NCBI GenBank assembly: GCA_030018585.1
Contig: JASEHZ010000005.1
Coordinates: forward strand, 1 to 32,237
Direction of reading: 5' to 3'
From: Patescibacteria group bacterium
Lineage (GTDB): Bacteria; Patescibacteriota; Minisyncoccia; UBA6257; GWB1-50-10
Length of the DNA: 32,237 bases
The translations under genes and the position numbers were made by a program. Below the pieces are notes generated by a model, which worked only from the letters and a program-made list of their open reading frames with translations, made no database searches and was not told the DNA's origin. This document shows, one piece after another, positions 16,031 to 28,122 of the stretch. The first letter of the stretch is position 1, and each line of letters starts with the position of its first letter.

Positions 16031-17296
16031 ATGAAAAAGAAATTTTTCTATTTTGACTATGCCTCAACTACTCCTATTGAACAAAAACACGTGTTTCGAG
16101 CCATGGAACCGTATTTAAAAAATGAATTTGGCAATCCCTCGAGTCTTTACGAGTTAGGGCGGAGGTCAAAAGTGGCTATTCAAAAGTCGCTGGAACGAAT
16201 CTCGGGCGTATTAAGATGTAAGCCGGACGAATTTATTTTTACTGGTTCGGCAACCGAGGCCGACAATCTTGCAATAGAAGGCGTGGCAATGACAAACAAA
16301 GAAAAGGGGCATAAAATCATTGTTTCTAACATTGAGCATAAAGGCATTCTTTCGATTTGTAATTTTCTAAAGAAGCAGGGTTTTGAAATTTTAGAATTAA
16401 AAGTTCAAAAAAACGGCCTCCTTAATCCAAAACATCTTGAAAAGTTAGTTGATGGTAAGACGATTTTAGTATCTTTAACTTACGCGGACTCAGAAACCGG
16501 CACAATCCAGCCGATAAGCGACTTAGTGGGGGTTGTAAAACGATTTCGGAAGGAAAAAAAATCAGATTTTCCATATTTTCATACTGATGCAAGCCAAACC
16601 GCGTTATATCTTGAGCTGGGTGTGGATAACTTAGGTATTGACCTCATGACGCTTTCGGCTCATAAAGCGTATGGTCCGAAAGGAATTGGCGGTTTATATA
16701 TCAGGCGGGGCATAAATATAAAACCAATAATATATGGAGGCGGCCAGCAGGGGAATTTAAGATCAGGCACGGAAAATATTCCGGGCATTGTTGGTTTTGG
16801 TGAGGCCTTTTTTCTCGCCAACAAAAATAAAAAAAAAGAATTTTTAAGAATTAAAAAACTTCGAGACAAATTAGAACGTGGAATTTTCCAAAAAATCCCA
16901 AAAGTTATTTTAAATGGTCATCCTAAAAAACGCTTGCCGAATTTTTTAAATATTTCCATTTTAGATATTGAGGGAGAAGCATTAATTTTATATTTGGATA
17001 GGCTTAGCATCATGGTAAGCACTGGTTCAGCTTGTAATTCAGAAAGTTTGGAGCCGTCTTATATTTTAAGTGCCTTGAGAAGGCCTTATGAATTTATTCA
17101 TGGCAGTTTAAGATTTACTCTCGGTAAGTATACAAAAGATTCTGATATAAATTATGTTTTGAAGAAATTGCCAGCAGTTGTAAAAAAACTAAGAGCCGTT
17201 TCTCCCTTGAACTTATCTCTTAATGCGAAAAACAAAATTTTAGAACCAAAAGCATTTATTGGTGGACAAGCGCCTCATTTTTTAAGGAAGAAATAA
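16031..17296 (+). CDS. cysteine desulfurase (NifS/IscS-like)
   Basis: YFDYASTTPIE; HTDASQTA; LSAHKAYGPKGIGGLYIRRG; STGSACNSESLEPSYIL. Confidence 0.92.
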   Translation: MKKKFFYFDYASTTPIEQKHVFRAMEPYLKNEFGNPSSLYELGRRSKVAIQKSLERISGVLRCKPDEFIFTGSATEADNLAIEGVAMTNKEKGHKIIVSNIEHKGILSICNFLKKQGFEILELKVQKNGLLNPKHLEKLVDGKTILVSLTYADSETGTIQPISDLVGVVKRFRKEKKSDFPYFHTDASQTALYLELGVDNLGIDLMTLSAHKAYGPKGIGGLYIRRGINIKPIIYGGGQQGNLRSGTENIPGIVGFGEAFFLANKNKKKEFLRIKKLRDKLERGIFQKIPKVILNGHPKKRLPNFLNISILDIEGEALILYLDRLSIMVSTGSACNSESLEPSYILSALRRPYEFIHGSLRFTLGKYTKDSDINYVLKKLPAVVKKLRAVSPLNLSLNAKNKILEPKAFIGGQAPHFLRKK

Positions 17297-17299
17297 TTT

Positions 17300-17968
17300 A
17301 TGCCGAAAACTAAAACAAAACCCGATATTGTAGATAGATTTACTGGTGACAAATGGGTTTACTCAAAAATAGTAAAATCTCATTTTTTTCATCCAAAAAA
17401 TTTTTTAGTCGGGGATTTGAATAAAGTTAAATTTGACGCAGATGGGATTATCGGATCGCCGGCTTGCGGCGATGTGATGCGCGTATGGCTTAAAATTGAT
17501 CCAAAAACCGAAAAAATCAAAAAATTTAAATGGCGAACATTCGGTTGCGCAAGTGCTATTGCCGCGACCTCAATGCTTTCAGTGATGGTTACGGAAAAAG
17601 GCGGAACAAAAATCAATAAAGCTTTAAAAATCAAACCTCAAGATATTACGAAACGTTTGGATGGTTTGCCAAATCGGAAAATTCATTGTTCGGTTTTAGG
17701 CGATAAAGCGTTAAGAATAGCAATTAATAACTGGTTTAAAAAAACAGGCCAATACGAGAGAATTGTTGTTGAGGGCTCGAGAATTTTAGACCCCAATACC
17801 AAAGTTACCGAAGCTGATATAGAAGAAGCGGTACTTGAGGGGGCTCTTAATCTTCAAGATATTCAAAAAAGAACAAAAGTCGGCATCGGCTATAAAAAAT
17901 GCATTCCAGAGGTAGAAGGGCTGATAAGATTTTATCGGGAAAAATATTATGGACCAGACAAAAAATAA
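17300..17968 (+). CDS. IscU/NifU-N-type Fe-S scaffold
   Basis: three ligand Cys contexts: GSPACGDVM, TFGCASAIAATSM, KIHCSVLGDKA. Confidence 0.9.
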   Translation: MPKTKTKPDIVDRFTGDKWVYSKIVKSHFFHPKNFLVGDLNKVKFDADGIIGSPACGDVMRVWLKIDPKTEKIKKFKWRTFGCASAIAATSMLSVMVTEKGGTKINKALKIKPQDITKRLDGLPNRKIHCSVLGDKALRIAINNWFKKTGQYERIVVEGSRILDPNTKVTEADIEEAVLEGALNLQDIQKRTKVGIGYKKCIPEVEGLIRFYREKYYGPDKK

Positions 17969-18179
17969 AATTGAAAAAATACTTGAGAAAGTAAGACCGT
18001 TTATTCAAATGCATGGCGGTGATGCAAAGCTAATCAGAGTTAAAAATGGAGAGGTAATCCTTAAAATATCCGGCGCTTGCGTGAATTGCTCGCTTACTGA
18101 TTTGACTTATAATAAAATGATAGGGGGTTTAATTAAAGAAGAAACACCCCAAATTAAAAAGGTCATTGTTATCAATTAA
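17949..18179 (+). CDS. NifU C-terminal/Nfu-type protein
   Basis: MHGGDAKLIRVKNGEVILKISGACVNCSLTDLT (CxxC). Confidence 0.88.
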   Translation: MDQTKNKIEKILEKVRPFIQMHGGDAKLIRVKNGEVILKISGACVNCSLTDLTYNKMIGGLIKEETPQIKKVIVIN

Positions 18180-27032: not shown

Positions 27033-27384
27033 TGGAGATTTCTTCTATGGCTTTTTCTTCAGAAATCATCGGCGGTACGCCAATGATTTTTATTTTTTTA
27101 AGTTTGCCTAATTTTTGCAGAATTCTAAGTTGTGTTAGCGCATCAAAATCATGAACTGATACTCTAGGCGTTTTAGCAAATTCATTTAAAGAGTTAAAAA
27201 TTTTCATATTGTTTATTCCTACTGCCGTGTCAATTATTATTAATTCTTCCGGCAAATTCCATTCTTCATTCGGATCTTTTATTTTAAATTCAATATCCGG
27301 AAATATTTTTTTTAATTCCGGCAAAATTTTTATAGGCAGCGAATCTTCTTTTATATCTGGATTGCCGAAAACAAAAATAGTCAT
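27007..27384 (-). CDS. HycI/HybD-type hydrogenase maturation protease
   Basis: FGNPDIKEDSLPIKILPEL, LIIIDTAVGI, VSVHDFD match the metal-ligand positions of the family. Confidence 0.78.
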   Translation of the reverse strand: MTIFVFGNPDIKEDSLPIKILPELKKIFPDIEFKIKDPNEEWNLPEELIIIDTAVGINNMKIFNSLNEFAKTPRVSVHDFDALTQLRILQKLGKLKKIKIIGVPPMISEEKAIEEISTILRSNKL

Positions 27385-27390
27385 ATTAAA

Positions 27391-28122
27391 TTAGATAGTT
27401 TGGTTAGCAAGTTTTAAACTTTGAAGTGTATATTTTTTTAATATCTCAGCTTGTTGCAATGAAATTACTTCGCAAGGCACACTCCAATGAATTGAAATGG
27501 TATCGCCGGATTTTATTTGCTCGATGTCGTATTCTGATTCTAATCGTCTGTTGAGTTTTTTCTTGATCGGTGAACCAAAGCACAGTTTTCTATCCGCGTA
27601 AATTATTGGTTCTGTTTCAACGATAATTGCAGGACCTTTTATTTCAATTATTTTTCCGGCACTGACAACGCATTCGCTTAAACTTTCCAAGCTATGCTCT
27701 AAATCAAAATTGCCAGTTCGGCGCCAAACATTTAAAACATGAAATGAATGATGAGGAACTGCGCCCTTTTTTAATTTTTCCTCCAGATATTCGAAATCTT
27801 TGCTTTTAATTTTTCTTTTAATTTGCTGATTTCCAATTAAATGTCTATGAAAATGTTTTTTTTCAATATTCTGCAGTAAATCATTGCCTAACCAATATGC
27901 TCCCACAACCCGATTATCAAAAGGATCCTGGATTTTATTTGCATAAGCAATAAATTCAAGATACGGATACATTGTTTTAAATTGTAAGAGTAAATTTTCT
28001 AAACCAACATCAGTTACGCCTTCATCAATATAAGCCTTAACTTCGCGGTTAGCATCTGGCCCGCAATAATGAAGACGATTGGGTCCAAAAGCATAGCGCG
28101 AGCAACGCAAAACTCCGTCCAT
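27391..28122 (-). CDS. DUF6390-like protein with HypC-like C-terminal domain
   Basis: GVLRCSRYAFGPNRLHYCGPD N-terminus; C-terminus ECVVSAGKIIEIKGPAIIVET...KSGDTISIHWSVPCEVISLQQAEILKKYTLQSL. Confidence 0.6.
   Translation of the reverse strand: MDGVLRCSRYAFGPNRLHYCGPDANREVKAYIDEGVTDVGLENLLLQFKTMYPYLEFIAYANKIQDPFDNRVVGAYWLGNDLLQNIEKKHFHRHLIGNQQIKRKIKSKDFEYLEEKLKKGAVPHHSFHVLNVWRRTGNFDLEHSLESLSECVVSAGKIIEIKGPAIIVETEPIIYADRKLCFGSPIKKKLNRRLESEYDIEQIKSGDTISIHWSVPCEVISLQQAEILKKYTLQSLKLANQTI

Follow-up and report, generated by a model that had tools for sequence, protein, structure and literature searches.

A DUF6390–EamA gene pair beside Patescibacteria [NiFe]-hydrogenases in genomes without HypD and HypE, and its possible role in hydrogenase maturation

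Introduction

All [NiFe]-hydrogenases are stated to depend on six Hyp proteins for their NiFe(CN)2CO cofactor, with HypD, HypE and HypF building the Fe(CN)2CO group together with HypC (PMC12134894, PMC12130793). Ancillary scaffolds, HoxV and HupK, have been proposed to hold this group between HypCD and the large subunit (PMC12134894). Among bacteria of the Candidate Phyla Radiation (CPR), Jaffe et al. (2020; PMC7304191) described the ‘hyd2’ hydrogenase type, which the sections of that paper considered here characterise by a distinct 3b-related large subunit, a truncated small subunit (mean 164 aa), a nearby PF07992 oxidoreductase (fam013) and a neighbouring family, fam002, with homology to HypC. 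Here we describe a hyd2 locus in the 99.5%-complete, 0.68 Mb genome (681,944 bases) of a member of the Patescibacteria, together with the gene pair that adjoins it, encoding a DUF6390 protein and an EamA-family transporter. The window referred to below is the whole 32,237-nucleotide stretch of contig JASEHZ010000005.1 (C27) that was analysed.

The locus agrees with those sections of the hyd2 account in its large-subunit type, the length of its small subunit (159 aa), its PF07992 neighbour and its HypC-homologous neighbour. On sequence grounds the enzyme is therefore assigned to the known 3b-related hyd2 type, with presumed H2 activity; the FAD/NAD(P) oxidoreductase in the window is likely fam013 and DUF6390 is probably fam002, as far as those sections define the two families. 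What looks new is the maturation of hyd2, the enzyme type itself being known. The main text of that paper does not mention hypD or hypF, and a literature search returned nothing relevant on DUF6390, on EamA proteins in connection with hydrogenase maturation, or on hydrogenases lacking HypD.

Hydrogenase and maturation genes of the window genome

The truncated small subunit (25256–25735, forward strand; Oxidored_q6, PF01058, 8.5e-20) is followed by the large subunit (25737–27032, forward strand; NiFeSe_Hases, 4.4e-29), for which the best NCBIfam models are sulfhydrogenase ShyA/HydA. The large subunit contains RICGTC at 61, EAPRG, PTGQN and, from 414, DPCMSCAAH, giving it both the L1 (RxCGxC) and the L2 (DPCxxCxxH) metal-ligand motifs. 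It ends in a 9-aa C-terminal extension after DPCMSCAAH, and a HycI-like protease gene adjoins it (27007–27384, reverse strand). The HycI identity is the weakest family call of the region (PF01750, 0.0026, below cut-off), and is backed by position and conservation. Comparison with the relative G360 gave dN/dS ratios of 0.04 for the large subunit, 0.05 for the small subunit and 0.10 for DUF6390, indicating strong purifying selection, with the values approximate because dS is near or above 1.

The four small-subunit cysteines (C16, C17, C90 and C140) would be enough for one cluster. In hyd2 small subunits, adjacent cysteines (FSCCED) stand where hyd1 has CxxC, and genome G323 has a single Cys at this site. 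The NuoB subunit of complex I has a similar tandem Cys pair.

Whole-genome searches of the window genome gave no match to HypA, HypB, HypC (PF01455), HypD or HypE, while for HypF they gave only a weak C-terminal cross-match of TsaD type, as in nearly all genomes. Of the components of canonical Hyp-dependent maturation, it thus lacks HypD/E/F as well as HypA, HypB and a stand-alone HypC, but it has the C-terminal extension and a HycI/HupD-type protease gene, so that cleavage is predicted. It is unlikely that HypD was simply missed, as the same search found it in 20 relatives and four control genomes.

Among 392 genomes of the class, 90 carried a related large subunit. These fell into a close group of 22 genomes (49–91% identity) and a distant group (mostly 29–38%), split with full support on the hydrogenase tree; hyd2 lies on a long branch there, as it does in the part of the Jaffe et al. 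account considered here. We equate the distant group, in which the small subunit has ~250 aa, with ‘hyd1’. In 19 of the 64 hydrogenase-bearing genomes of the class, HypD and HypE occurred together with HypF (matched in its C-terminal part), all at over 100 bits. All 74 genomes searched for HypB stayed under the cut-off; since this protein is missing from both classes of genome, the difference between them lies in the iron-ligand branch. In 18 of the 19 HypDEF-bearing CPR genomes (e.g., G192, G112, G290 and G283), the HypF match was confined to the C-terminal half (~370–740) of the model, with G329 alone encoding a full-length protein.

The DUF6390 protein and its transporter partner

DUF6390 is encoded at 27391–28122 on the reverse strand (PF19927, 8.4e-55, 186 bits against a cut-off of 25). 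Its AlphaFold model is confident (pLDDT 90) and consists of a helical N-terminal domain followed by a beta domain and a helix. Foldseek returned HypC (2z1c) as the best solved match, to the C-terminal domain (TMt 0.65, E 0.017), and an hhalign profile comparison aligned 37 columns close to the C-terminus with HypC, at a probability of 90%. A PDB sequence search gave nothing significant, with HypC at the top of the weak list. The earlier note on this DNA, made from the letters alone, had called the gene HypC-like. This is apt for its C-terminal third, but the gene as a whole belongs to PF19927/DUF6390: PF01455 did not match, the HypC fold is confined to the C-terminal domain and the conserved Cys is not at residue 2. 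Invariant residues in the DUF6390 alignment include G3, C20, Y54, Y76, H125, H128, C151, H212 and W213.

Directly upstream of DUF6390, and on the same strand, is an EamA/DMT (drug/metabolite transporter)-family gene (28126–29094, reverse strand; PF00892, 1.8e-33, matching as two EamA domains). The unit therefore runs beyond 28122, where the interval given in the earlier note had ended. After removal of loci seen twice, 94 other DUF6390 loci had enough sequence for adjacency to be scored (window excluded), and 71 of them had EamA immediately upstream in the same orientation: 22/23 hyd1 loci, 39/52 hyd2 loci, 10/15 loci with the large subunit off the stretch and 0/4 Chloroflexi loci. By comparison, none of the 28 hydrogenase loci that lack DUF6390 had EamA in such a position (p = 6.6e-14). 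The two genes overlap in 43 of 70 pairs, and in a Kerfeldbacteria locus (L110) they are fused into one 563-residue reading frame. The model of this fusion has two confident domains (pLDDT 89) whose relative orientation is not fixed (pTM 0.62), and its transporter half has a DMT fold, with a TM-score of 0.87 to LicB and ~0.8 to 5i20, which we take to be YddG. Compared among themselves, the EamA proteins share an IHKT motif, and W177, E180, K185 and R200 are invariant. An equivalog match for the transporter was not found.

DUF6390 adjoins both hydrogenase types, which share no more than ~31–38% identity, in different gene orders, commonly hypC – EamA – DUF6390 – hydS – hydL in hyd1 loci, and EamA – DUF6390 – hycI facing hydS – hydL in hyd2 loci. 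A 122-aa unknown protein lies between HypC and HydS at L094 12078–12443 (genome G071), where relatives have EamA–DUF6390.

Distribution of DUF6390 and the Hyp proteins

DUF6390 was found in 33 of the 64 hydrogenase-bearing genomes, in 32 by PF19927 and in G228 by a purpose-built profile. HypD was present in one of these 33 genomes versus 19 of the 31 without DUF6390 (p = 2.7e-7, Fisher’s test), and HypE in 0/33 versus 19/31 (p = 1.6e-8), with genomes treated as independent in both tests. DUF6390 and HypD thus nearly exclude each other among hydrogenase-bearing members of the class. The sole genome with both, G214, has hypC–hypD across a contig break, and hypE and hypF were not found in it. A scan of GTDB, in which the loci nearest to the window were labelled Patescibacteria, Wolfebacteria and other Parcubacteria, added 50 DUF6390 genomes (49 not already counted); none had HypD or HypE over the cut-off, nor did any of the 15 checked for HypF exceed the cut-off for that protein. 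HypD and HypE are therefore jointly absent from ~80 DUF6390 genomes. One of them is the closed chromosome of Beckwithbacteria GW2011_GWC1_49_16 (CP011210.1; L164/G425), which has DUF6390, EamA, HycI and the hydrogenase together and none of HypD, HypE and HypF over the cut-off. As this chromosome is closed, assembly gaps were rejected as the whole cause of the absence. On the hydrogenase tree, DUF6390 requires nine changes and HypD eight.

The family is not specific to the CPR, being found also in Chloroflexi, Sulfobacillus and Mycobacterium. On plasmids of Sulfobacillus acidophilus and Mycobacterium intracellulare, DUF6390 forms part of a canonical hyp cluster, with hypD as its neighbour or hypE close by, which makes it likely that a role in hydrogenase maturation alongside the Hyp proteins is ancestral. 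The neighbour of the Mycobacterium DUF6390 gene was considered as a possible transporter and rejected, as it looks soluble and is without a Pfam match. In Thermomicrobiales, DUF6390 follows hypC, with no HypD or HypE over the cut-off. Four Chloroflexi/Thermomicrobiales metagenome-assembled genomes of 2–7 Mb (L182, L183, L184 and L177) contain hydrogenase-operon genes, HypC, HycI and DUF6390, and have no HypD, HypE or HypF over the cut-off.

Proposed role and alternative explanations

Because the EamA–DUF6390 pair is found where HypD/E/F are absent, we suggest that it stands in for them and either provides the iron moiety of the active site or inserts it, a reading to which we assign a probability of roughly 0.55. 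DUF6390 would hold an iron species through its HypC-like domain (C151 and H212) and an N-terminal site made of C20, H125 and H128; C151 and H212 appear to be placed comparably to the N-terminal Cys of HypC and to the residues leading into the final HypC helix. It would then hand the iron species to the apo-large subunit, after which HycI would clip the C-terminal extension. EamA might move a small molecule needed for maturation, the simplest candidate being a ligand or a ready-made iron synthon that comes from the surroundings or a partner cell. A stronger version, in which these Patescibacteria import a partner-made ligand or pre-assembled iron–ligand synthon that DUF6390 receives and installs, would amount to cofactor acquisition and not synthesis. 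As the case for it is only the company that the transporter keeps, this version is speculative and we regard it as rather unlikely.

Several observations weigh against a replacement role. The chemistry is hypothetical, and the substrates of EamA proteins are not readable from sequence. In its sequence, DUF6390 bears a weak likeness to HypC of known structure, with an E value of 0.28 in a profile search. The Fisher p values are inflated by shared ancestry, and a tree-based sign test on ~6 independent pairs was underpowered and not significant (median p 0.5). HypD and DUF6390 are both missing from twelve of the 64 hydrogenase genomes, and two of the genomes with neither system (G009 and G349; loci L067 and L068) are hyd2 genomes nested in the DUF6390 clade, with no EamA beside the hydrogenase, so that DUF6390 is either not strictly required or was missed there. 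Of the 94 loci, 23 lack an adjacent EamA, including 13/52 hyd2 loci and all four from Chloroflexi. Finally, the coexistence of DUF6390 with the full Hyp set in Sulfobacillus and M. intracellulare implies that its original role was accessory and not one of replacement.

The last two points are also those on which the chief alternative draws, namely that DUF6390 is a mere HypC-like chaperone kept after the loss of HypDEF, with the Fe(CN)2CO ligands coming from an unrecognised pathway or another partner route and EamA being unrelated and co-selected. Its coexistence with HypC, HypD, HypE and HypF in Sulfobacillus and Mycobacterium would be expected of such a chaperone, as would its coexistence with a stand-alone HypC in hyd1 genomes and Thermomicrobiales. 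The overlapping EamA–DUF6390 genes, the fusion, and the occurrence of the pair with two diverged hydrogenase types argue against chance, however, and we consider this explanation doubtful. Alternatively, the enzymes may carry no Fe(CN)2CO at all, being oxidoreductases that derive from hydrogenases but have a simpler metal site, for which HypDEF are unneeded and into which DUF6390 inserts iron or nickel. The failure to find genes for cyanide-ligand synthesis (HypE, HypF), the long hyd2 branch and the one-cluster small subunit would all fit this idea. It is nonetheless quite unlikely, given that the four metal-ligand cysteines and the adjacent motifs are the same in genomes with and without HypDEF, even between the close relatives G221 and G329. 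Lastly, although most of the genomes are metagenome assemblies and several of the 12 with neither system are sisters of HypDEF-bearing ones (G368/G329, G378/G348), the notion that maturation is canonical and the Hyp genes are just unassembled or too diverged to detect is most improbable and largely refuted by the ease with which all three proteins are found in the 19 relatives, their absence from ~80 DUF6390 genomes in the case of HypD and HypE, and the closed chromosome.

If EamA–DUF6390 does support maturation, it would represent either an alternative route to the cofactor’s iron moiety or cofactor import by bacteria with reduced genomes, and DUF6390, an uncharacterised family, gains a testable function. 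More broadly, dozens of Patescibacteria genomes encode a hydrogenase with intact active-site motifs and no HypD or HypE (and no HypF where checked). This bears on metabolic predictions for the CPR, in which hydrogenase genes are tallied with no regard to whether their product could be matured.

Neighbouring fermentation and iron–sulfur genes

The hydrogenase is preceded by a series of genes for iron–sulfur assembly and 2-oxoacid metabolism. On the forward strand these are a cysteine desulfurase of NifS/IscS type (16031–17296; Aminotran_5, PF00266, 2.5e-61; TIGR03402 at 441 bits, under the equivalog cut-off), a NifU-like scaffold with NifU_N and Fer2_BFD domains (17300–17968; PF01592, 8.6e-35; PF04324, 8.2e-7), a small Nfu protein of 76 aa with CVNC, as read from its sequence (17949–18179), a single-cluster ferredoxin with three Cys (18187–18444; Fer4_13, PF13370, 2.7e-8), the FAD/NAD(P) oxidoreductase (18463–19710; Pyr_redox_2, PF07992, 1.5e-51) and a putative lipoprotein with an LGIGC lipobox (19828–20433). 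The ferredoxin may start slightly upstream, at TTG 18166 or an ATG near 18184. The lipoprotein is one of three small predicted exported or lipoprotein-like orphans in the window (with 6514–6915 and 14834–15280) for which convincing Pfam families were not found. On the reverse strand follow an ADP-forming acyl-CoA synthetase (ACD) of the fused alpha–beta type (20529–22562; CoA_binding, Succ_CoA_lig and ATP-grasp_5, with the phospho-His motif SHTGS at 251) and a 2-oxoacid:ferredoxin oxidoreductase (OFOR), its beta subunit at 22588–23358 (TIGR02177, over cut-off) and its fused alpha and gamma subunits at 23363–25078 (TIGR03710, 564 bits, over cut-off; YPMTP motif). All genes that the earlier note had listed between 16031 and 28122 are thus present with family-level support, weakest for the protease. 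They do not form one operon, since the strand switches at ~20.5, 25.2 and 27.0 kb.

By family, OFOR converts a 2-oxoacid to acyl-CoA and reduced ferredoxin, ACD draws ATP from acyl-CoA and the hydrogenase could pass electrons on to H2, with ferredoxin and the FAD/NAD(P) oxidoreductase as candidate electron partners and H2 turnover possible in either direction; judging by the gene content, the three together would permit the formation of ATP and H2 from 2-oxoacids. The earlier note had proposed a near self-contained ATP-yielding H2 module, and had named a neighbourhood not conserved in relatives and the absence of hypD, hypE and hypF from the genome as what would speak against it. The neighbourhood proved to be conserved in close relatives: the whole island (NifS, NifU, ferredoxin, FAD oxidoreductase, ACD, OFOR, HydSL and HycI) recurs in G360, G096 and G349, which belong to three families, and a chance neighbourhood was rejected for this reason. 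The hyp genes, on the other hand, are absent as reported above, so that the proposal is only partly supported: the enzymes from 2-oxoacid to ATP and H2 do stand side by side but the module is not self-contained with respect to HypA–F. Nor do OFOR, ACD and NifSU form its core. Of 57 unique hyd2 loci, 8 have OFOR and ACD next to the hydrogenase (too low a figure, since a good many of the stretches are short) and 6 have NifS, compared with 19 for the FAD/NAD(P) oxidoreductase and 56 for a HycI relative. Most hyd2 loci have no adjacent OFOR, ACD or NifSU, and the recurrent unit is EamA–DUF6390 with HycI and HydSL. The NifS and NifU neighbours, although outside this unit, are noteworthy because the cofactor iron of E. 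coli appears to come from the Isc machinery, according to the part of PMC10847431 considered here.

Comparison with known systems

The sections of Jaffe et al. considered here describe neither the near-exclusion of HypDEF nor the pairing with EamA, in which respects the present account of hyd2 differs from theirs. Among maturation factors, DUF6390 resembles HypC, HybG and HupF in having a C-terminal domain with the HypC fold, in which a Cys near the start and the sequence GD..S.HW ahead of the last helix are conserved. Unlike them, its Cys is internal (C151) and not residue 2, it has ~150 extra N-terminal residues with invariant Cys and His of their own, and it occurs in genomes without HypD. 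As an extra maturation factor, it would by analogy be comparable to HoxV and HupK; these, however, work together with HypCD and are similar to hydrogenase large subunits, a likeness that Pfam, PDB and fold searches did not show for DUF6390. The transporter, to judge from the modelled L110 homologue, shares the DMT fold of EamA/DMT transporters such as the choline importer LicB and the amino-acid exporter YddG, but differs from both in being genetically tied, or even fused, to DUF6390.

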